This document shows, in pieces, positions 8,564 to 47,151 of a stretch of 64,000 bases of DNA. The notes below the pieces were generated by a model, which did no database searches, was not told the DNA's origin, and worked only from the letters and a program-made list of their open reading frames with translations. Source of the stretch: Parabacteroides acidifaciens (lineage in GTDB: Bacteria > Bacteroidota > Bacteroidia > Bacteroidales > Tannerellaceae); contig NZ_QREV01000014.1 in NCBI RefSeq assembly GCF_003363715.1, positions 1 to 64,000 on the forward strand. Reading direction: 5' to 3'. The position numbers were made by a program, and so were the translations under genes. How positions within the stretch are numbered: the first letter of the stretch is position 1; each line of letters opens with the position of its first letter.

Positions 8564-11335
8564 CTATTCTAACCTCAATATGCCCAAGGAAGACGGGATA
8601 TGGAAATCCGGTTCGGTCGCTTCGGGCACAATCCAGGAAGACCAGATCACCTGGTCATCCTTATTTCCGAAATAATCCGCCCGGTAAACGCCCATGCGAA
8701 TCTCGCCTTCCGGAGAAACCAGCCCTAAATCTTTTAATGATTTCAATGAAAGGGAACCTTCCACACGGTAAGAATCCTTACCGATATAAGTAGCCACTTT
8801 CAAATCTTTAAAGTTCCAACTGCCATCAAACTTCCGGTAGTGATGCGCTTCATAGTCCATCACCTTGCCCTGCGGGTCGATCTCTGCACAATAGTAGGTT
8901 TTCATTTCCGGATCTTTGCTAAAGAAAAATTCAACGCGGTCGCTGCTTCCGACGGAAGCCTCCGTCTTTTCGTTGTTATATACCAAAGTCGTATCGGACA
9001 CTTCATACAGGAAATACAGGTTCTTTTTATCGTGGCAGACATAAAAAGCCGTGCTGTCTTTCACCGCTCCATCCCAAGGAGCGATAAGCCCGCGTACGGC
9101 AGATGGGATATTCCAGTCGTCGCTCTTTCCATCGACTTTTATGCCTTTGACAAACGGAGCACGGATAAACGGATGAATAGAAATGCTCTTTCCCAGCGGA
9201 TGACTGGAAGGGAATACGATTTTCACATCCCGGCCGTTGATGTTAAGTGATAAGCTAATTTGTTTATGCGTCGGATCGGCAGCCTCGACATGCCAGTCGC
9301 CACGATCCCGGCGGAACATATAAATGCCCGGTGTCAGGATATCCACTTGCAGGTCATACCGCAAGTCCAGCTTTTGCGGTTCATACGCCGTCACATAAAA
9401 ACAACCGCCGAGGCCGACAGCCTGAACCGACCGGTCGTTGCGGATCACCTCTATATCCTGTGTGGAGAAAGCCGCCGTCTTTTCAGCAGAAGAGGCAGGA
9501 AGGATCAGGTATTGGTAGCCGGCATTATCCGCCCTTCCATGCTCGATATGCAAACCGACGATCTCACCCTCCACGGTTGCAGGTGCATACGAGCCCATAA
9601 AATCGCACCAACGACCGGAGCGCTTTTCCGAAACAGCCACACAGGTAGCCGGCTGCAACACGATATAGCCTGTATTATCATGGAAGAACCGCTGCTTTTC
9701 CGGAGAAGAGGTGTAAGTCCCGTTTACCGGAACCCAGCCTTTATGCTCATAACGAAGCAAATCGCCATGCTTGACACGCTGGTCAATGGAGGTTGTAACA
9801 GCCAATGTACTGTCCGAATGGATACCGGCACCGAGACAAAGAACATAATCATCGGTAAAGATCCACGACTTACGGGCCTGCAATCCGTCACGGTCCAGGA
9901 CCATGGCCGTCATACCCGTATGCCCGTCCGTCACGCCTCCGACAAAAGCCGTCTTATTCCGCACATGCTCCCCATAACGGAAAAAGGCGGGAACGGGAGC
10001 ATCGCTCTCATAGGAGGTGATACCCGGTATCTTGCGCCAATCCCAGAACGGGAAAATATTCAGATACTCATCACCCCGGCAATAGGTATAGAGCGCACCG
10101 TCCGCCATATAGAAACCTTTCAGGTTATCTTCATTAATAAGTTCCGTCCCGATCACCCGCCAGGAGGCCATCTTGACGGAAGCCATCCAGGCCGGAGAGC
10201 GATGGATGGTCTGGTCCGAATCCCAGAAATGCTTATGTCCGGTAAAGCGGCTCCCCTCCTTTTCGGGAGCATAGTTGTCTTGAAGGAAATCGTTCATCCG
10301 GCTGATATCTTCCGCCCCGCTTCCCCGCATCAGGGCATTTGTCGCAAACGCCAGACTGAATGCCTTATGAATCTGTCCGCTATGGAAAAGTTGGCGGTCA
10401 AGCGCATTGATATCCATGTAGCCTCGCCAGACAATCCAGCGATAGCCGTTCAGCAGGAAAGAATTCAGGATATCCTGCTGTTCCTTGTTCAAGGCAAAAA
10501 CCGTTCCGGCAAACAGACCGGAGAAGGAACTCATCTCAGTCAGGAAGGCCAAGCCGTAATTGCCGAACTGCTGCTGTGGCCCGTGCTGATGGAAACTCCA
10601 GTCACTTCTGATCCCTTCCTGCGTCCCGATCGTGATCTCGGAAACAATCGTATCGCGGGCAGCCTTCACCAGTTCAAAATCGTCCTGCAGCAAACCGCGT
10701 ATCAGTACGTTTCCGGCCAACCACACTTTGTTTTGCCCCGTCATTCCGAACTTGGCATTCTCCATCACTTCGATGGCTGCCGCCTTTTCCTTCGCATCCA
10801 ATTCGTTTTTCATCAAGAGGAAAGCCGGACCCAATGTTTTGGGAATCCCGATTTCGTTGTACCACCAGTTCTTGCAAACCGGCTTCTCGCGAAACCAATA
10901 GCCGAAGGCCTGATGAATGACTGTTTGGAGTTTAGGCCCCCAATGGCAATCGCCGTCTTCCGCCATGTAGAGTTTGGCAAGTTCCAATACCCTGTCGGCA
11001 TGTGCCTTGACTGACCAGCCCGACCGCTTCTGGTCGTTATAATCGATATCCGGCCAGGAACCGTCCTCCCGGATCGTTTCCATATAGGCCGTTATCTTTT
11101 CTATGTTAAATGGATAACGCTGGTGGAGCTCCACGACCACCTGGTCGGCTATCTCTGTTTCCGGTTGGATGCCGGACAGGAGCTCAACCAAAGAGGCCGT
11201 CCCGTCATCGTTCGAGACCAAAGACCGGATATAGTTTTGTTGAAGCCGCTCCAACTCCTGTTGCGGTGTTTGTGCGAACAAAGGGATCGCTACAAGAGAG
11301 AACAAAAAGACGGAAACTTTATTTCGTACATTCAT
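8564..11335 (-). CDS. Polysaccharide lyase family 8-like enzyme with C-terminal CBM9-like domain
   Basis: This is a 923-residue secreted enzyme with a signal peptide at 1-21 ([13 protein letters not shown]). The alpha/alpha-barrel at about 25-380 carries PL8-type catalytic segments: [10 protein letters not shown] (156-165), [15 protein letters not shown] (247-261, catalytic His and Tyr) and a later arginine in [10 protein letters not shown] beta-sandwich region follows. The last 190 or so residues (from [14 protein letters not shown]) resemble a family 9-like carbohydrate-binding domain. PL8 enzymes cleave uronic-acid polymers such as hyaluronan, chondroitin or xanthan; the substrate cannot be read from sequence. 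Its ATG is only nine bases after glpF, so it may be the last gene of the glycerol operon, an odd pairing. Confidence 0.82.
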
Positions 11336-11344
11336 GGTATATAA

Positions 11345-12082
11345 TTATAGAATATAGTATAACATAGCTGCTACGGCCGCCCCGGCAATCGGTCCCAACA
11401 CCGGAATCCAGGCATATCCCCATTGGCTGCCGCCTTTTCCTTTTATCGGCAGAAGGGCATGCATGCAACGGGGAGCCAAATCGCGGGCCGGATTAATCGC
11501 ATAACCTGTCGGGCCGCCCAGCGACAACCCGATCACCCAGACCGTAAACGCCACCGGCAACGCCCCTACGGAGCCCAAACCGATCGGCAACGTACTGTTG
11601 CTATCCTTCAACGCTAATTCGCCGCCCGTGATATAGAACACGACAAACATCAGGGCAAAAGTCCCGACCGCCTCCGTCAGGAAATTAATCGCCGGATGGC
11701 GGATGGCCGGACTGGTACAGAACACGCCCAATATGGCATCCGGATCGTCCGTCGCCTCAAAATGGTCTTTATAAACAAGCCAGACTAAAAGCGCACCTAA
11801 AGCCGCTCCCAACATCTGGGCAATCACATACTGGCAAACGTCGCACCAGGGAAACGTCCCCCCGATAGCCAACCCGATGGAAACCGCCGGATTGAGATGC
11901 GCCCCGCTATACGGCCCGGCCACCACCACTCCGATAAACACACCCAAAGCCCAGGCTGTCGTTATCGCCATCCAGCCGGCGCCATGCCCTTTGGTCTTAC
12001 CGAGGCATACATTTGCTACAACGCCTCCTCCCATCAGGATCAGAAGCATGGTTCCTAATAATTCTGCTATAAATGGAGTCAC
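11345..12082 (-). CDS. glpF: Glycerol facilitator (aquaporin family)
   Basis: GlpF is an inner-membrane channel for glycerol entry. The 245-residue protein has about six membrane spans and both family motifs: GAHLNPAVS near residue 67 and INPARDLAPR near 202. Aspartate after the second NPAR is typical of glycerol-conducting rather than water-only channels. It lies 53 bases after glpK on the same strand. The gap holds an AT-rich simple repeat. Confidence 0.93.
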   Translation of the reverse strand: MTPFIAELLGTMLLILMGGGVVANVCLGKTKGHGAGWMAITTAWALGVFIGVVVAGPYSGAHLNPAVSIGLAIGGTFPWCDVCQYVIAQMLGAALGALLVWLVYKDHFEATDDPDAILGVFCTSPAIRHPAINFLTEAVGTFALMFVVFYITGGELALKDSNSTLPIGLGSVGALPVAFTVWVIGLSLGGPTGYAINPARDLAPRCMHALLPIKGKGGSQWGYAWIPVLGPIAGAAVAAMLYYIL

Positions 12083-35243: not shown

Positions 35244-35315
35244 GGTTCCTTGGATGAGTGGCTTAGTCAGCGGTCTGCAAAACCGTCCACGGCGGTTCGA
35301 ATCCGCCAGGAACCT
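35244..35315 (+). tRNA. tRNA-Cys (GCA), first copy
   Basis: A 72-base cloverleaf: acceptor ggttcct/aggaacc, anticodon arm gcggt-ctgcaaa-accgt with anticodon GCA, T arm ggcgg-ttcgaat-ccgcc, discriminator T. No CCA is encoded. Identical to the second copy. Confidence 0.97.
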
Positions 35316-35370
35316 CTTGGTAATTGAAAATTCAAAATGGAGAACTGAATATTACTTATTATTCTATTTT

Positions 35371-35442
35371 GGTTCCTTGGATGAGTGGCTTAGTCAGCGG
35401 TCTGCAAAACCGTCCACGGCGGTTCGAATCCGCCAGGAACCT
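35371..35442 (+). tRNA. tRNA-Cys (GCA), second copy
   Basis: Identical in all 72 bases to the copy 127 bases upstream. The 55-base spacer between them is AT-rich and shows no promoter box of its own, so both are probably cut from one transcript. Confidence 0.97.
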
Positions 35443-35448
35443 CAAAAA

Positions 35449-39332: not shown

Positions 39333-39474
39333 TTAAAACAATCATTATAAAAGAGGGTACACCAGAAGCTGCTTATCCCCGCGCTAAACGCAGGATCGCA
39401 AAAAGACAGGAGTTATCAATTTTCTGATGTAATTTCCACATCAAGAACGAGAATAAAGCTCTACTGTCCCCTCT

Positions 39475-40521
39475 TCATTTATCAATCAAACTTTCACTAT
39501 CATCTGAATGCATTATGTTTTTCAATACACATTCCCGACTGGTATTAGCATAACAATATACACAGAAATGATGGCAAGTATTATACATACCGATATCCTT
39601 ACTCACCATACAGCCACAAACCTTACGTTGTCCTTTGTCTTTTAAGTTCTTTCGTTTGTCTGGCATAACAGGAAGCATACCGAAAATATCCGGTTCGGGC
39701 AATTTGCCAGTCTGAAGATAATACATCAATTCGTAGTCATCACCGAACACACATTCCATTAATTCACCATCAATACAACGATTATGCTCAATGCCATAAG
39801 TATCCAAATCAACATCTTCAGCACAAGTAGCAAGTACTACATTCCATCCGGCAGATGCCCACGTTTCACGAAGCTTTACCAATCCTTCTACCATTTCTTG
39901 GCGTTGTGTCGTATTCATCTCTGCCCCTTCGACATTGCTCTTAGAAAAATAATGAGTCTCTTTAACAAGGTTATTCTGCACTTTGCGGTAGGCTTTCACA
40001 TCCACAAAACTAAATACAAGTTTATCAGTATAACCTTTCAAACAATTACCAATCTTCCACATACGACTAAGTAAAATGCGGGGAGTAATAGACGGAGTGA
40101 TAATAAGCGGGTCAAACCGCCAGATTATCCGTTCTTTCCCTATCATTTCCGATAACTGACGAAAAATACCCACTCGTTGCTCTACACTTGGAACATTTGG
40201 CTCAAAACCTTCATCAGTATAATCGTTCAATGTCACTTGGAAGTAATAATGAATGCCCCGTTCATCAAGTTCATGCAGATAAGGCAATATTGGTTTCGGA
40301 TTCTTCGTCCAAAACACAATGACTTTACACCGCTCGAATGAGACATACATTTTTTGCTGATTGAACGGATTATACCATACACAATAACCTCTAGCCAAAC
40401 GATTGAAGAACCATTTAGCATAAAAAGCCGGGATATCCGTTGATCGGCTGGCGGAGATAATAACGGGAGCCACAGCCTCTACTTGCTCGCCGAAGTCGGT
40501 AGTGATAAAAATTTTATCCAT
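39475..40521 (-). CDS. DUF1848 protein (radical-SAM-like)
   Basis: This 348-residue protein matches the DUF1848 family by its N-terminus (ITTDFGEQVE, IISASRSTDIPAFY, WYNPFN), VFWTKNP and IWRFDPLI segments. The cysteine motif C-x3-C-x2-C (CHHFCVYCYA) lies near the C-terminus (about 322-331), where these proteins are thought to hold an iron-sulfur cluster; a further CGC lies upstream. The reaction is unknown. It lies 23 bases after the NTF2-like gene on the same strand. A decayed copy of its first 40 codons lies at 41380-41538. Confidence 0.85.
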   Translation of the reverse strand: MDKIFITTDFGEQVEAVAPVIISASRSTDIPAFYAKWFFNRLARGYCVWYNPFNQQKMYVSFERCKVIVFWTKNPKPILPYLHELDERGIHYYFQVTLNDYTDEGFEPNVPSVEQRVGIFRQLSEMIGKERIIWRFDPLIITPSITPRILLSRMWKIGNCLKGYTDKLVFSFVDVKAYRKVQNNLVKETHYFSKSNVEGAEMNTTQRQEMVEGLVKLRETWASAGWNVVLATCAEDVDLDTYGIEHNRCIDGELMECVFGDDYELMYYLQTGKLPEPDIFGMLPVMPDKRKNLKDKGQRKVCGCMVSKDIGMYNTCHHFCVYCYANTSRECVLKNIMHSDDSESLIDK

Positions 40522-40544
40522 AACTATTGCTTTTATTTAGGCTC

Positions 40545-41366
40545 TTATTCCTGCAAATTTTCTAATACATATAAATCAGAAAAGCACATATCCGCACGAT
40601 ATGCCATCCCGTGATGAACTTTTATAGCGATTATAACAGGTCTATTATTATCTTGGACCAGGTAAATGCCTTTCTTATTCGGTATTGCATTTACCTTTAC
40701 AACACTTCCTGTTTGAATGATAGTATTGAATTTTACTGCAAGATAGTTTAAATATTTATCTTTTCCTTTCATCTCTTCAAGAACCCATTGTGATGAATAA
40801 GTAAAATCAGGAACAAGATATGGCTCAATTATAGATACATCTTTCTTATTCCAAGCCTCTTCAAAAGCGATTATAACATTACAATTATTCTCATAACTAT
40901 TTTCTCTCACTCCTGCACTTACGACTTCTTCTAAATCTTTTTTCTGATATTCTTCTACAAATCGAATAAGCGAAGGATATGCGATCTTTGCAAAATAATT
41001 AGTTGTACATCCTAAAAGAAGTAAAGATAGCTCATCATTGGACAGATCAATAAATACCATATCTTCAATGAAATTATCAGTAACCGGCATCCAATATTCT
41101 GAAAATTGTTTAGCTAAATCAGAATCAAGTTTATGAAAATGTTCAATCCATTGATCATAACAAACCTTTGCTTTATTAGCAGAAATCACATGTTTAGGAA
41201 ATTCCACAAGGGAAAAACATCCTAATATTTCAGAATACTCTGCATATAAAGGGAATGACACTTCGTCCAGATACTTCCAAGCTTCAGGTTTATTATTAAA
41301 ATAGGAAATGATGTTTATAGCTTGTTGCACCCGATTACTGATTATTTTATCTTGAATCATATTCAT
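40545..41366 (-). CDS. Uncharacterised protein with C-terminal NTF2-like domain
   Basis: I do not recognise the N-terminal helical part (1-155) of this 273-residue cytoplasmic protein. The C-terminal part (about 160-270, FEEAWNKKDVSIIEPYLVP, YLNYLAVKFNTII) has the pattern of SnoaL/NTF2-like folds. An ATG two codons later is an alternative start. Base composition is AT-rich like the genes to its right. It separates the intact DUF1848 gene from a decayed DUF1848 start, so it may have arrived by insertion. Confidence 0.6.
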   Translation of the reverse strand: MNMIQDKIISNRVQQAINIISYFNNKPEAWKYLDEVSFPLYAEYSEILGCFSLVEFPKHVISANKAKVCYDQWIEHFHKLDSDLAKQFSEYWMPVTDNFIEDMVFIDLSNDELSLLLLGCTTNYFAKIAYPSLIRFVEEYQKKDLEEVVSAGVRENSYENNCNVIIAFEEAWNKKDVSIIEPYLVPDFTYSSQWVLEEMKGKDKYLNYLAVKFNTIIQTGSVVKVNAIPNKKGIYLVQDNNRPVIIAIKVHHGMAYRADMCFSDLYVLENLQE

Positions 41367-41379
41367 TTACATTAAAATA

Positions 41380-41538
41380 TTAAAAATTATCATTGAATAC
41401 CTTTCTTAATCTAAAGTAAAAAAAGCGCTTAACACAAAAGGCCAGAATATCTGTCAACCAGTTGGTAATGATAAAGATTAAAGCTACGACCTCTATTTGC
41501 TCACCGAAATCGGTAGTGATGATTACATTTTTTTTCAT
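41380..41538 (-). pseudogene. Decayed 5' fragment of a second DUF1848 gene
   Basis: The minus strand from the ATG at 41538 encodes 52 residues beginning MKKNVIITTDFGEQIEVVA and continuing to TDILAFCVKRFF. This matches the intact neighbour (MDKIFITTDFGEQVEAVA, then STDIPAFYAKWFF) before diverging to a stop at 41380. The remaining 300 or so codons are missing. The fragment overlaps the end of the 695-residue gene in another frame by 38 bases with an ATGA-like junction, so a DUF1848 gene probably once followed that operon directly. Confidence 0.75.
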
Positions 41539-43588
41539 TCCTGATCTCTTTCAGTTCTTTCTCAACCCTCCTAGCCAGTTCATCAGTGAACAAATTTAGA
41601 AGCTCTTTATGACTCTTAGATTCTCCACGACTTTCTTTTTTACATAAGTGCAAGAAATAATCAATATGTTTATCGCTCATACAGTCATATCCTTCCGCCG
41701 TATAAGCCCAATTATCATTTAATCTTTTTTCAACTTTCTTATTAGAAGAACGCAATTTTTTCAAAGATTTCAAATCCGGCAATTCTTCCTTTGGGAATAA
41801 GGTTAAATCCTTATCCTTGTTATTTCCTTTAACTCTCCGGTTCTTTCCTTGAGTTGGATTGAGTTTTTTCTCTAAATACTTCTGTACGGTTTTCTGAAGA
41901 CCTTTTCCGCTATTAATGCGTGGATCTTCTTTTATATCTGATAAGAAATCAGCACTGATTCCTCTATGTCGGACACAAATTTCCATATATACAGATATAT
42001 CCTTTTTAGCACCCGAGCACCCACAATCACGAAGAAATTCATTTATCTGATCCTCGTAGGAGAAATCAACCTCATCTATAGATGTCTCTTCATCAACCAT
42101 CACAGATTTATCTTTCGGCAGAGTAGGATCAGTCCCTAATAATTGACCATATAATTCTTTATAAACATCTGCCACATATTTTTTTTCATCAACTCCTTTT
42201 TCATCAACGTTTAGCAAATTATCTGTAAAATCCCTTGTCAGATTAGCAAAACCATTCAACTCGCCATAGAAGGCAAAAGCAAGGCGATAGTCCGAAATGG
42301 ATTTACTTTGCATAAAAGCAAGCAACTGTTCCCAATCATTTCCTTTCGCTATAACGGCTACAATAGAAGAAACTAACAGATTATCCCACCTGAACATATT
42401 TTCCTGTCCTCTCACATATTTACGCATCTGATTCAATAATAGCTTCGCTTCACTGCCTTCCCAAGTATCTTTATATATTTCCTTTGCTTTTGTTGTAACT
42501 TCATCGGAGATTTTCTCCTTAAAAGAACTAATCTTCCCATTGTATGCCCTTGATAACAACACCTCGTTCACCCAAGCGATTATCAAGCTGTTTTCTAATC
42601 TTTCACCCAAAAGTTTATTTGAGATCTTGCTTAAACGGCAATCTGTTATAATGATCTCCTCAGCTGAAGGTTCCAATCGCTTCTGAACCTTTCGAACTTG
42701 TTTTTGTAATACATCTTGTTGCTCTTTCAACCAATCAATAGCAGGATTATTATTTTCGGGAGAATACCTCAAATATCTTATAAGTTCTTCCACATCAATT
42801 ATTCCTGGATACTTCATCCCCGATTTAATCCAATCCTCTATCTCTTGTATAGGCATCCTAAGTTCCAACAAGCGTACTATAAGTGGATTATACTTTTGCA
42901 ATCCTGTAAATAAAATATTTAGCCTCTCATTCTGGACTGTGGTAAGAAAATGATCTTCTGATGACAAGACGGAGAAAAAAATATCTTGTAACTCTCGTAG
43001 TATATTCACCTTTCGAGTAACCTCAGGCGTAGAAGAAAGCGAAGCTCCTATATAATAGCCATACAACAAGCCTTTCAATTTATTAATACGATAATCATAT
43101 TCAATTTTCTCATTATTCAAGCCGACATTCAATTCCATTTTAGGAATATTACCCACTGTCGGACTCTCTACAACAAGTCTCTTGCGATAAAATTCCACGA
43201 GTTTTGTTTCCTGACTGCTGTCAGATAAAGACAATGCGACATGTTGATCTTGTGCCGAGAAAAAGATGAACCGAGTTCGCCACGGTGACAGATAAATAGT
43301 ATGATCGCTATAGAATACACCCTCTGCGACCTGTGGAAAATCCTCATCCGTACAGATTTCGACAAGCAAAGGATGATCCTCAATATCACTACTCGGACGA
43401 GTGAATCCGATAGGCCTATCATAAAGGAGAATCACATTATCAATGTTATTCTCCGGTATCTCCAACCAACGAGAATAACCAAACCCTCTCCGTTCATAAA
43501 AAGCTTTTGGAGAAATACTTTCACTCGACAATATATTATTGAAGTTGAAAGTGGAAGTAGGAATATATAATTTTTTCATATCGTTCAA
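41501..43588 (-). CDS. Large protein of unknown family, third gene of the methyltransferase/helicase unit
   Basis: I do not recognise this 695-residue cytoplasmic protein. Seen: an N-terminal beta-rich section (LYIPTSTFNFNNILSSESIS, ERRGFGYSRWLEIPENNIDN), a long helical middle (about 160-470), and a basic, lysine-rich section at about 580-640. No P-loop, nuclease triad or membrane helix is evident. Its ATG overlaps the helicase stop by four bases (ATGA), so it is translationally coupled. Its last ten codons run across the start of the DUF1848 remnant, so the native C-terminus may have been altered. Context suggests a partner of the helicase, possibly in defence. Confidence 0.7.
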   Translation of the reverse strand: MNDMKKLYIPTSTFNFNNILSSESISPKAFYERRGFGYSRWLEIPENNIDNVILLYDRPIGFTRPSSDIEDHPLLVEICTDEDFPQVAEGVFYSDHTIYLSPWRTRFIFFSAQDQHVALSLSDSSQETKLVEFYRKRLVVESPTVGNIPKMELNVGLNNEKIEYDYRINKLKGLLYGYYIGASLSSTPEVTRKVNILRELQDIFFSVLSSEDHFLTTVQNERLNILFTGLQKYNPLIVRLLELRMPIQEIEDWIKSGMKYPGIIDVEELIRYLRYSPENNNPAIDWLKEQQDVLQKQVRKVQKRLEPSAEEIIITDCRLSKISNKLLGERLENSLIIAWVNEVLLSRAYNGKISSFKEKISDEVTTKAKEIYKDTWEGSEAKLLLNQMRKYVRGQENMFRWDNLLVSSIVAVIAKGNDWEQLLAFMQSKSISDYRLAFAFYGELNGFANLTRDFTDNLLNVDEKGVDEKKYVADVYKELYGQLLGTDPTLPKDKSVMVDEETSIDEVDFSYEDQINEFLRDCGCSGAKKDISVYMEICVRHRGISADFLSDIKEDPRINSGKGLQKTVQKYLEKKLNPTQGKNRRVKGNNKDKDLTLFPKEELPDLKSLKKLRSSNKKVEKRLNDNWAYTAEGYDCMSDKHIDYFLHLCKKESRGESKSHKELLNLFTDELARRVEKELKEIRNEKKCNHHYRFR

Positions 43589-44643
43589 ATATCTTCTATT
43601 TCTTCTATTTCTGAAATTTCATACAAATCCGGGGATATATCTGATAGAGGTTTAGGCAACAATCCACTATACATTATATATAAGTTCCTATACGTACGCG
43701 TCATCGCCACATAAAGAGATTTTCGTTGAGAACCTCCATCATCACTAAAATCCTCTATACATGGAAGGAATACAGTCTCAAATTGCAATCCTTTCGCACT
43801 ATGATAAGTCATTACTTTCGGATTGGTAGTCGAAAAGTTCAAAGAATCTTCACTATTACGCCAATTCTCTTTATCTGAATAACGTAACTCAACATTCAAT
43901 CCTAAACATTTCAACCTTCCTCCTATATCTTTAACCATTTCATTATGAGGCAACAAGACTGCGACATCCAACAAGTCATTCCTTTCAATAATACACTTTA
44001 CAGCAATTAGTTGACTTTCTATATCATCATATTTCAAAATATGTGGCATTACTGTTTCCTGACTTTTGTACGTACTTTCTTCAAATGGTGGCAAATCAAC
44101 ACCAACCGACTGTACCAATTTTGCAACCGGTATTGGCAAGCGATAATTACGGTATAACTCCCAAACCTTTGGCCTTTCTCCTCTAGGCAAAAGATATCCA
44201 ATATCTTCCACAGGTAATGTGTCTTTCAATCCTTCATAAATAGATTGTGCAGTATCACCGAAAAAAATGAAATGCTTCTTTGCTGCATCAATAAACTCTC
44301 TTATTTCCTCTTCTTCAAAATCCTGTATTTCATCTACGATAATATAATCAGCAGGACTGCAATTTTCTCTATTTTTCCATGCCCAATAATAAAGGAAAGT
44401 ATTTTTTAGCCCTAAACTTTGCCTCCCTGCATTCATGTATTGACAAAGAGCTTTCGTAAACACGATGATTTTATAATTATCTCCTCGTTCCTTTTGTATA
44501 CGTTGCGCTTTTATTAAAGCAAGTACAGATTTACCGCTACCAGCACACCCAGTTACGATACACGATTTATCAAGGACAGCCATTAATACTTTAATCTGAT
44601 CTTCATCTAACTCAGATTCTTTTATCATCCAATCCTTTTTCAT
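43585..44643 (-). CDS. Compact UvrD/Rep-like superfamily 1 helicase
   Basis: This 352-residue ATPase has superfamily 1 motifs in order: GCAGSGKSVLA (Walker A, about 32-42), IIVDEIQDF (Walker B), FFGDTAQSIY (motif III), ELYRNYRLP (motif IV), VMTYHSAKGLQFETVFLP (motif V) and LYVAMTRTYRNLYIMYSG (motif VI). It is about half the length of UvrD, with no room for full 1B/2B insertions. The frame is open to 44673, but the ATG at 44643 starts two bases after the methyltransferase stop and gives MKKDWMIKE, so I prefer it. It overlaps the next gene by four bases. Confidence 0.82.
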   Translation of the reverse strand: MKKDWMIKESELDEDQIKVLMAVLDKSCIVTGCAGSGKSVLALIKAQRIQKERGDNYKIIVFTKALCQYMNAGRQSLGLKNTFLYYWAWKNRENCSPADYIIVDEIQDFEEEEIREFIDAAKKHFIFFGDTAQSIYEGLKDTLPVEDIGYLLPRGERPKVWELYRNYRLPIPVAKLVQSVGVDLPPFEESTYKSQETVMPHILKYDDIESQLIAVKCIIERNDLLDVAVLLPHNEMVKDIGGRLKCLGLNVELRYSDKENWRNSEDSLNFSTTNPKVMTYHSAKGLQFETVFLPCIEDFSDDGGSQRKSLYVAMTRTYRNLYIMYSGLLPKPLSDISPDLYEISEIEEIEDI

Positions 44644-44645
44644 GA

Positions 44646-45452
44646 TTATATAAATTTTTGTATGATTCTCCATGCAACTTTACTCACATCTCTTTTCCTT
44701 CTGGAATGAGACACCGTAAACGTCTGATTATAGCCTTCGTTTCTTCGGATCACTTGGCAGTCAGCCTCCTCCAATCCTTTATCCATCATTTTGGGCAACC
44801 ATTCTTGAGAAACATTATTATAAGATGTAACATCCACAAATAACATGATTCCTTCCGAATTTAGCTTAGGCAACAAATTTCGCACTATATAATTATAAGC
44901 ATTTTGTTGTTCAAATCGTTCTTTCGTCACAAACTCACAAATTGCTTTAAATGACATTATAATGTCAAAACCATTAGGGATAATAGAATCAAGTATATTC
45001 AAATCGTAGAAATCATCAATCACAATAGGAATTATACGGCATTTAATCTTAACATTCGTCCGTAAAGAATAAGCATCCACCACTTTCTCAAAAAGACGGA
45101 GAGCATACGAATTCCCATCAAAAGCACATATATTAACAAACTTCATATTTGAAAAATAAATTTTGAGAGCCTCCAACAAGCCAATAATCTCACCACCTGT
45201 TCCACATCCAAAATCAAAGACGGAAAGTTCTTCTTTATCATACCAATCCCCTACATGATATCTAAAGAAATCACTGTAAATGCAAAAAGCTTCTGCATAA
45301 CTACGTGGAAAATAAGTACCAATATAGTTCAATACATCATTTCTATCCCAATCAATAACTGTCATGTCAGAATTGGAACAACAATAAGAGCCATGTAATT
45401 TCGTGAATATATATTCGTCAAGCCATTGCGGGAGATACACATCTGTTATCAT
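44646..45452 (-). CDS. Class I SAM-dependent methyltransferase-like protein
   Basis: This is a 268-residue cytoplasmic protein. A Rossmann methyltransferase core has motif I FDFGCGTGGEI (about 79-89) and an acidic motif II region (NICAFDGNSYALR). No DNA-methylase DPPY/NPPY motif is visible, and the segment DIIMSFKAICEF is where it would be expected. The substrate is unknown; small molecule, RNA or protein are all possible. It is first of three overlapping genes and lies 70 bases after the end of a structured RNA candidate, from whose promoter it may also be read. Confidence 0.72.
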   Translation of the reverse strand: MITDVYLPQWLDEYIFTKLHGSYCCSNSDMTVIDWDRNDVLNYIGTYFPRSYAEAFCIYSDFFRYHVGDWYDKEELSVFDFGCGTGGEIIGLLEALKIYFSNMKFVNICAFDGNSYALRLFEKVVDAYSLRTNVKIKCRIIPIVIDDFYDLNILDSIIPNGFDIIMSFKAICEFVTKERFEQQNAYNYIVRNLLPKLNSEGIMLFVDVTSYNNVSQEWLPKMMDKGLEEADCQVIRRNEGYNQTFTVSHSRRKRDVSKVAWRIIQKFI

Positions 45453-45520
45453 AGGATTCTCTCATCATATCTTCCGTTGGCTACCTTAGCGGGAGGTTAA
45501 CATTATAACAATCTCATATA

Positions 45521-45846
45521 CACAAAAACGTGGAGCCAGTCCTGTCACTCGTTCCACGATTCAAAGGCTCTCGCATGCCCAGTTTGTCGAAACGAGCAAC
45601 GTCGAAAGCCCCACGCCGATGTGATTATATAATCTACCACTCATCGTTCCTATCGCAATGAAACGACAAGATACAATGAGGGCTGTATATAAACATCCCA
45701 CGGGACGTTCCCGTTGCTTTGTTCCTGACAAACTGTTTAGAATTTGCGAGATTCTTGAATCGTCAAAACCAAAGCGTTCAGTAAACGCCTTTATGTATAT
45801 GTGCCCCTCTACCGCATCACTATGAATGACACCAGCGTGAGAGGAA
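45521..45846 (-). ncRNA. Candidate structured RNA, about 320 nt
   Basis: Transcribed leftward from a -7 box at 45853-45860, this stretch has no long open frame. It can form at least seven stems: cctct/agagg (45806-45844), aggcgtt/aacgctt (45772-45790), gattc/gaatc (45750-45761), acggga/tcccgt (45700-45714), ctcat/atgag (45640-45680), gatta/taatc (45623-45634), and a large three-tier hairpin (45529-45615). The large hairpin has an 8-bp base, a 9-bp inner stem (45545-45553 with 45591-45599) and a small top hairpin. It is followed by TTTTTG, as at an intrinsic terminator. I do not recognise a known RNA family. It may be a stand-alone RNA or a leader of the methyltransferase operon. Confidence 0.65.
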
Positions 45847-45852
45847 ACATTG

Positions 45853-45860
45853 CAAATATA
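45853..45860 (-). promoter_or_regulatory. -7 promoter box of the structured RNA
   Basis: The minus strand reads TATATTTG (exact TAnnTTTG). No clear -33 TTTG at the usual distance. Predicted transcription start about 45846, just before the first stem. Confidence 0.55.
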
Positions 45861-45951
45861 GTAATTTATTATTTTATCTCCGGTAAGAAGTGAATCATTA
45901 TTTATAATTCAATACTGACAAGTTTCAAATCTCCTGCAAACCTAATGGATT

Positions 45952-46462
45952 ACAATAACCCCCTTTCCGGCGATTTTTCTATTTCGTCCAAAATTCTGAT
46001 CCATTTTGGATTGACTCTTTTCATTGTTTATCCCTTCCTGTCTGACAATAGGTGGGGGTGAGGTGCGCAGCCCGTTTTGAAAAGTATTCTTTTTGATTGT
46101 CGGAAGGCAGAAATGCCGACAAAGTGATAAAGCTTAACTCCCAGAGAATCGAATATTTCAAAATAAAACGGACGGCGTTCCAAATATCCAAAGGAAATTC
46201 AGGGGCTTTTTTGCCTTTAAGACGGTCCTCTTTTCAATTACGACCGTCCTAATCTCCATTATGACCGTCCTAATCTTTGCGAGCTACCGAGTGCACTACA
46301 CATTAGAACAGTCGTAATGGCAAAGAGGACGGTCGTAATGGCGGAAAACGTTCAAAAAAGAGGAAAAAGTTCCTTTTTGAGGTCAAAAAAGCGGTTTAAC
46401 ATTTGTTTGAATTAGATCCTCTTTTTGGCCGGAAAAATGCGTTTTATACAATAAGCCCCCCG
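45952..46462 (+). repeat. 511-bp element, copy B
   Basis: Same orientation, length and core type as copy A. It starts acaataacccc and ends cgttttatacaataag. The core consists of six consecutive 21-base units starting at 46221. Three begin gacggtcct or gaccgtcct, one is a divergent centre, and two carry the complementary word (acagtcgtaatgg and acggtcgtaatgg). The frame that is open in copy A has a stop codon here, so coding is unlikely. Confidence 0.88.
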
Positions 46463-46618
46463 AGACAGTTGAAAGTTATAAGGGATCATGAACTATCCTG
46501 TTTCGCACTTCGACGCGGGATCACAAAAGAACCTGCCGTATCCACACATAGATGCAAATTTATCAAATACGATCTCTCCAAACTTTCAACTCCCGGGGGG
46601 GCTTATTGTATAAAACGT
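46438..46618. repeat. Inverted junction between copies B and C
   Basis: The sequence gttttatacaataagccccc (near 46441) and its complement (near 46596-46616), each followed inward by cagttgaaagtt or aactttcaactc, form a stem of more than 30 bases around a spacer of about 100 bases. Confidence 0.8.
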
Positions 46619-47105
46619 GTTTTTCAGGGTGAAAAAATATTCGAAGCCGAACAAATGTTAATCCACTATTCTGCCGTCAAAAAGAGGCTTTTCCCTATGA
46701 TCTGGCATCTCGCTTCCGTGAAGAGGGACTTTATTGCTCTGATCCGGAACTTTGTTGCCCTGAAGTCGGACTTCATATAACACGAAGTCAACCTTCAGAG
46801 CGATGAAGCGTTACTTCACGGCAATTTTCTGCGCACTTCACGGCGACAAGCCCCCAAAATTTCCTTGGGATATTTGGAACGCAGTCCGCCTTCGTTCGCA
46901 AATATTCAATTCTCCCGAAGTTAAGATTTATCACTTTGCCTCTGTTTCCAGTTTTCAGTAACCAAATTGCACGCTTTTTGGAATAGACTCAGCACCTCAT
47001 TTCATCTACAGTCATCCGTAAAGTCCAAAACCGTGAAAAGAGTCAATCCAAAATGGATCAAGATTTCGGACGAAATAGAAAAACGTCCGAAATAGGGGTT
47101 ATTGT
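46594..47105 (-). repeat. 511-bp element, copy C, with a different core
   Basis: Inverted relative to copies A and B, facing copy B across a 130-base spacer. The flanks match (tctatttcgtccgaaatctt, aaagtgataaatcttaact, ggattaacatttgttcg on the minus strand). The core (46700-46846) is unrelated in sequence to A and B, yet again periodic: the word acttt/acttc (accttc at 46791) recurs at 46728, 46749, 46770, 46791, 46813 and 46835, a spacing of 21-22 bases. An open frame (46403-46780) crosses spacer and core but I do not call it a gene. Confidence 0.85.
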
Positions 47106-47151
47106 CTTTTTTCCAATTTACAGAAAGGTCAAAACTAAGAAATAAGGAGTT

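Follow-up and report, generated by a model that had tools for sequence, protein, structure and literature searches.

A putative portable RNA switch at the head of accessory operons in Bacteroidales

The RNA element and its parts

The window analysed here is a stretch of 64,000 nucleotides (nt) from Parabacteroides acidifaciens (contig NZ_QREV01000014.1), whose minus strand from 45860 to 45523 consists, by sequence, of a promoter box, a strongly folded RNA and a U-tract, followed by an operon that begins with a methyltransferase-like gene. As argued below, this element is likely a portable cis-acting RNA switch (attenuator) of ~320 nt that heads the transcripts of accessory operons in Bacteroidales. 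Its parts, assigned to two alternative predicted folds termed S1 and S2, are as follows, all on the minus strand.

45860-45853: -7 promoter box TATATTTG, Bacteroidota TAnnTTTG by sequence
45806..45844: variable 5' hairpin, from the predicted fold
45771..45792: small conserved hairpin H1 (AAAGGCGTTTACTGAACGCTTT), with many invariant columns in alignment A1 (26 copies)
45755..45761: P-a 5' strand, pairs with 45564-45558 in S1
45745..45751: P-b 5' strand TCTCGCA, pairs with 45575-45569 in S1
45727..45734: P-c 5' strand AGTTTGTC, pairs with 45588-45581 in S1
45712..45717: strand A (GCAACG), partner of strand B in S1
45693..45706: strand Y, partner of strand Z in S1 by predicted fold, followed by an apical variable domain
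45607..45621: strand Z (CATCGGCGTGGGGCT), partner of Y in S1 and of D in S2
45589..45601: strand B (CGTTGCTCGTTTC), partner of A in S1 and of C in S2
45544..45557: strand C, partner of B in S2 and of D in S1
45529..45537: strand D, the 3' arm of the terminator, partner of C in S1, of Z in S2 or else of leader loop E
45528-45523: U-tract TTTTTG, by sequence
45471..45495: leader hairpin E, whose loop at 45485-45478 (GGTAGCCA) is complementary to D

We take 45853..45860 to be a -7 box on the basis of the Bacteroidota consensus TAnnTTTG. Of the 128 unique full copies of the RNA that we gathered, 79 have an exact match to this consensus no more than 75 nt upstream of the core, and 96 have one with at most one mismatch. 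The variable 5' hairpin appears to be more stable than its composition predicts, the 56-nt region averaging -18.4 kcal/mol versus -12.1 kcal/mol in mononucleotide shuffles (shuffled subset, the first 60 copies). A sequence-only reading of the locus had described a promoter-like box, a structured RNA without an open frame, a three-tier hairpin and TTTTTG, and this description is confirmed by the sequence, by the folding of the ~320-nt region after the promoter box against shuffles (z -8.8) and by covariation. Homologues with compensatory changes in the stems, whose absence that reading had named as the first of two refuting findings, are abundant. Its failure to place the RNA in any known class was likewise borne out, as Rfam 15 returned no match for the window element at the gathering cut-off or at E<=10 on 45400-45900, and none at gathering for 6 further homologous loci.

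Two putatively exclusive folds and a predicted pairing beyond the terminator

To define S1, a covariation scan was run on 124 copies (effective number 117) with column pairs restricted to mostly complementary ones. The top fifteen scores all fell within three nested helices linking the 5' half of the RNA to its 3' half, with 717 of 744 cells paired and 299 double changes in P-a, 736 of 743 and 138 in P-b, and 558 of 580 and 240 in P-c. Together, 96-99% of the cells in these helices are paired versus at most 52% in slid registers, and single pairs show all four Watson-Crick types. In 50 divergent copies found with a covariance model, P-c gave a permutation z of 10.9. For the Y:Z pairing, permutation tests gave z 5.3 and 6.4. 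Folding energies computed for 169 copies point the same way, with means of -120 kcal/mol for the whole RNA and -68 and -41 kcal/mol for the separate halves; S1 was favoured by 11.9 kcal/mol, versus 3.4 kcal/mol when the halves came from different copies. The A:B pairing was present in 714 of 744 cells (96%) of the pattern set at the slide +2 register, where B is fixed by the search pattern, and it covaries in the single cases L226, L067 and L210. A terminal closing helix, P1, has weaker support (z 5.0) and is not claimed.

S2 is the three-tier terminator hairpin against the U-tract, in which 90% of cells are paired and 12 of 19 pairs show double changes. Within it, B:C is paired in 86.3% of cells with double changes in 8 of 12 pairs, and reaches z 8.5-8.8 in the 50 divergent copies. 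Compensatory changes support both folds, which from the sequence are predicted to be mutually exclusive by topology because the B:C loop contains the 3' strands of all three long-range helices, with ~2 nt between P-a and C; were P-a to P-c formed, this ~2-nt linker would therefore need to span ~17 base pairs.

Strand D has a further potential partner in E, the loop of a hairpin that the mRNA leader forms past the U-tract. The match of D to its own E exceeded that of permuted pairs with z 11.3 (117 copies, 0/2000), and the 50 divergent copies gave z 5.2 and 4.7 (0/5000). When own pairs were compared with the other copies of one genome, the z was 2.6.

Distribution, downstream genes and the window operon

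When 123 genomes of the host's family were searched by BLASTN with the element, 20 had matches, at 45 places in all, where a single copy sometimes counts twice because its two halves matched separately; with one exception, the carrier genomes belong to one and the same genus. A pattern for the 3' half matched at least 120 stretches across GTDB genomes, and 115 of the 120 matches listed are labelled as Bacteroidales or Bacteroidia taxa, the other five as Clostridium, Roseburia and Firmicutes (one each) and 'bacterium' (two). The covariance model R1, built on the 3' half, matched 72 of 392 Bacteroidales genomes, which span 38 of 204 genera, with up to 9 matches per genome; in a phylum-wide draw of 392 genomes it matched the window's own genome only, with 5 Bacteroidales among the 21 genomes listed. 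The host genome holds a second, divergent copy at C87:32889-32981 (locus L191). Two RNA queries had no match in plasmid sequences; in phage sequences one query was without a match and the other gave a single partial match of 76 nt, and viral contigs with the RNA numbered 2 by the 3' pattern and 0 by the 5' pattern.

Several copies depart from the usual arrangement. Locus L040 contains two tandem accessory units ~2 kb apart, each with its own copy of the RNA (9626-9959 and 11609-11939). At L049 (5677-6093) and L051 (7499-7914) the promoter and the 5' half of the RNA are followed directly by unrelated sequence and an open reading frame (ORF), and the 3'-half model found nothing at either locus; the switch may have undergone natural deletion in these copies. 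Six of the 122 pattern loci (L110, L117, L135, L165, L173 and L190) have an RNA that is interrupted directly after strand D by a stretch of ~90 bp with similar ends, TTGAACC or TGAACC and ATACCATAAAGTTCCC with variants, linked by BLAST in pairs only. This stretch could be one end of a mobile element with the U-tract of the RNA as its target. Four additional hits of this end motif fell within normal leaders.

Between the end of the RNA and the start codon of the next operon there are typically 40-80 nt. The first ORF begins 140-179 nt after the GGGCTT motif in 83 of 136 cases, and 11 of 147 sites are followed by no ORF. Compared by phmmer at 1e-4, the 162 unique first ORFs form 101 clusters without links between them. 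Pfam and PADLOC were run on representatives of 78 of the 101 clusters, with names drawn from the first 25 families of 78 and of 130; this named EcoRI-type, type II and type III methyltransferases, DndC, SspB, a MADS component and PD-T4-6-like kinases, as well as a subtilase, a leucine-rich repeat protein, a short-chain dehydrogenase, an acetyl-CoA hydrolase and a sensor-regulator protein. Ten first ORFs inspected singly include a PLD-SNF2 helicase, a DUF4007 protein and a vWA protein, and four were without a hit. By a crude rule, 51 of the 162 first ORFs have a signal-peptide-like start.

The sequence-only reading had placed the RNA upstream of a three-gene unit. A tie to this unit in particular is not supported, as very different first genes follow the RNA at a near-fixed distance and homologues of the unit's first gene also occur without it. 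Among loci with homologues of the window methyltransferase, 3 of 9 carry the RNA, as does 1 of 26 PLD-SNF2 homologue loci, or 1 of 13 when whole-protein matches are counted (2 of these 13 being cut within 350 nt upstream). As two gene families thus occur both with and without the RNA, it looks, from these sequence comparisons, like a detachable leader rather than a component of each downstream system. By eye, an XRE-type regulator gene lies upstream in 2 of 11 inspected loci without the RNA. At L061, L035, L039 and L064 a small ORF resembling a helix-turn-helix protein, also judged by eye, is the first gene after the RNA, and RNA and protein regulator may be stacked there.

In the window, the RNA and the operon behind it comprise the following.

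44646..45452, minus strand: first gene, resembling an S-adenosylmethionine (SAM)-dependent methyltransferase (methyltransferase families hit in Pfam, at E 6e-4 at best, none of them above the cut-off)
43585..44673, minus strand: SF1 helicase, UvrD / viral-helicase-1-like (Pfam PF01443, PF13361 and PF13538 above the cut-off)
41501..43588, minus strand: 695-aa protein without an assigned family in family scans
39337..47150, no strand assigned: accessory insertion of ~7.8 kb carrying the RNA and the operon, borders within about 20 bp

The first gene encodes FDFGCGTGGE, conserved in the alignment, which we take to be a SAM-methyltransferase motif. For the 695-aa protein there was nothing above the cut-off in Pfam and nothing in PADLOC or NCBIfam; one phage record, MT835661.1, contains a 26% identical region. 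Relatives of this protein stand behind the same methyltransferase family in L037, L046 and L126, and of 14 stretches matched in a search of GTDB contigs for relatives none was one. The window operon is a candidate defence operon. Downstream of the 695-aa gene, it continues with a gene of 273 aa that has weak SnoaL hits and then a DUF1848 gene. In PADLOC, models of reverse transcriptase (RT)-associated proteins hit both the helicase and the DUF1848 gene (E 6e-42 for the latter), and the methyltransferase has a weak hit to the RT_UG35 model (E 4e-4); by Pfam, none of the five window genes has an RT domain. The insertion is absent from four relatives, in which the matching flanks are 29-309 bp apart, and a fifth relative aligned to one side of it only. 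General family scans of the five insertion genes (Pfam, PADLOC and NCBIfam) named no recombinase. Elsewhere in the window, 35244-35316 and 35371-35443 are tandem tRNA-Cys (GCA) genes of equal Rfam score.

A model of the proposed switch, its alternatives and related systems

That the element acts in cis as a leader is suggested by the near-fixed distance to diverse first genes, the D:E covariation past the terminator and the existence of first-gene homologues without the RNA. In the mechanism that we propose, transcription would begin at the -7 box and continue across the element to the operon behind it. The S1 fold would have the 5' half capture the 3' half through P-a, P-b and P-c, A:B and Y:Z, so that C and D are left to pair in a short hairpin; in the S2 fold, B:C and Z:D would form the long three-tier hairpin against the U-tract, an intrinsic terminator. 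Under a signal that acts on the 5' half, the equilibrium between S1 and S2 would move, and with it the level of read-through. In the read-through RNA, the freed strand D would pair with leader loop E near the start codon and thereby lock the open state or tune translation. S2 would thus be the OFF state and S1, with D:E, the open state; this assignment, an effect of the switch on termination and the existence of a signal that acts on it are what we infer. At the level of sequence, covariation supports the long-range helices of S1, the helices of S2 and D:E, and the comparison of loci supports the association with many genes and the presence or absence of the RNA at the same gene family.

Several observations weigh against this model or against parts of its evidence. 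The short C:D hairpin, which is compatible with S1, covaries as well (86.2% of 195 cells paired, 15 double-change cells, 0/500 shuffles; permutation z 5.6-9.6), although two of five measures lie within the shuffles (pairs with double changes 82/500, pair types 62/500). S1 may therefore also terminate, through a weaker terminator of its own, which leaves the ON/OFF assignment tentative. The copy-specific test of A:B in divergent copies varies with how the strand is cut (z 3.4, -1.9 and -1.1), and by the anchored test A:B covariation is not significant in the divergent set; the z of 14.7 for A:B in the pattern set probably stems from the neighbouring P-c strand. A:C, intended as a control pairing, gave z 7.9, which in our reading is explained by the C cut containing the P-a strand. 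The permutation tests also leave shared ancestry in place. As for D:E, the window's own match is short, at 5 + 2 bp, and the pairing can form only after the U-tract has been transcribed, so that it cannot decide the termination of that transcript.

The sequence-only reading had taken the element for a defined non-coding RNA with its own start and terminator. The structured RNA, the promoter-like box and the terminator-like end are supported; an independent, discrete RNA is not, and the element is probably not a stand-alone non-coding RNA. In the corresponding alternative, a trans-acting small RNA (sRNA) family, the terminated ~320-nt RNA would accumulate and act by base pairing or protein binding, D:E reflecting binding to its own mRNA leader. 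The promoter-like box and the U-tract are indeed present, and several paralogues occur per genome, as reported for FopS (PMC11697453). However, D is internally paired in both folds, E lies just downstream at the same locus and fits D better than do the other copies of the genome (by the modest within-genome z given above), and the position upstream of the start codon is near-constant, which makes an sRNA family improbable.

A second alternative, that the RNA is a component of a defence or toxin-antitoxin (TA) system resembling type III TA, AbiF or retrons and works with the encoded proteins, we consider highly unlikely. The order of promoter, RNA, terminator and gene does resemble type III TA, known defence families occur among the first genes, and the PADLOC matches in the window operon concern RT-associated models. 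Against this, a number of the 101 first-ORF clusters are non-defence by Pfam, and two gene families occur without the RNA too. In type III TA systems, a tandem-repeat RNA antitoxin precedes one fixed toxin gene; the element has no fixed toxin gene, given the 101 clusters and the gene families without the RNA, and no tandem repeats are apparent in alignment A1, although no dedicated repeat search was made. A retron RNA, which would have an RT next to it, was rejected on the diversity of the first genes, on the gene families that lack the RNA and on the lack of an RT domain by Pfam among the five window genes.

Alternative folds beside a terminator are typical of riboswitch and attenuator leaders, but a classical metabolite riboswitch or leader-peptide attenuator serving one pathway is highly unlikely, as the downstream genes have no visible common pathway and the RNA belongs to no Rfam class. 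Nor was a conserved upstream ATG ORF of at least 25 codons found (183 in 128 copies vs 145 in shuffles, with scattered starts), in a search confined to ATG starts and to that length. That a foldback element (a miniature inverted-repeat transposable element, or MITE) landed before these genes by chance would explain the multiple copies and the long hairpin-like fold, but is scarcely credible and was rejected on the double changes in both folds and the near-fixed, same-strand placement before start codons, with a promoter box in most copies.

Returning to the cis-acting switch, we tentatively raise the possibility that one general switch, shared by many gut Bacteroidales, fronts ~100 accessory operons, known anti-phage families among them, that all answer a common signal, such as phage attack or another stress. 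Protein regulators (XRE, WYL) stand before many defence systems, and if a common signal exists the element would be their RNA counterpart, with a pairing relay past the terminator into the mRNA leader. The element belongs to a large and strongly conserved RNA family of gut Bacteroidales, without a match in Rfam 15 in the copies tested (the window and six loci), for which two folds are predicted base by base and natural compensatory variants are at hand. If it is a switch, it would offer a handle on the control of accessory and defence operons, which are costly, and could serve Bacteroidales research as a portable control element.

Among known systems, attenuators and transcriptional riboswitches are closest in general kind, sharing the 5' leader position, exclusive helices of which one is terminator-like, and a regulated gene next in line, with termination here read from sequence. 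At that level the element has both the constrained leader position and the exclusive helices, one resembling an intrinsic terminator, that mark an attenuator. Unlike them, it stands before about a hundred first-gene clusters, has an extra covarying partner beyond the terminator, and is, at ~320 nt, mostly one long-range hairpin without an Rfam 15 match. Type III TA and AbiF-associated RNAs share the order of RNA, terminator and gene; they differ in that the gene partner of the element is not fixed and two gene families also occur without it.

The FopS and GibS sRNAs of Bacteroides thetaiotaomicron are described as multi-copy paralogues with sigma-ABfr promoters and a terminator (PMC11697453), and thus resemble the element as RNA paralogues of the same bacterial group with promoter and terminator. 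As described there, FopS has a single-stranded 5' seed and a terminator, acts in trans on susC-type mRNAs and is said to have been deposited in Rfam (PMC11697453), a description that sets it apart from the element, whose 5' part is paired in the predicted fold. The Bacteroidales-1, Bacteroides-1, Bacteroides-2 and Bacteroid-trp motifs are structured RNAs reported in the same phylum (PMC2864571); the three with Rfam numbers (Bacteroidales-1, Bacteroides-1 and Bacteroid-trp) do not match the window, and Bacteroides-2, listed there without such a number, lay outside this comparison. Thousands of candidate structured RNAs have been predicted in human microbiomes (PMC8040213), and the motif may be among them unnamed. 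A literature search of titles and abstract openings, with most subscription journals and bioRxiv outside its coverage so that an earlier description is possible, found no description of the RNA. Taken together, the sequence comparisons suggest an RNA family that has no Rfam match and is of a known kind, the attenuator or orphan riboswitch, but is unusual in its portability and in its predicted pairing past the terminator.
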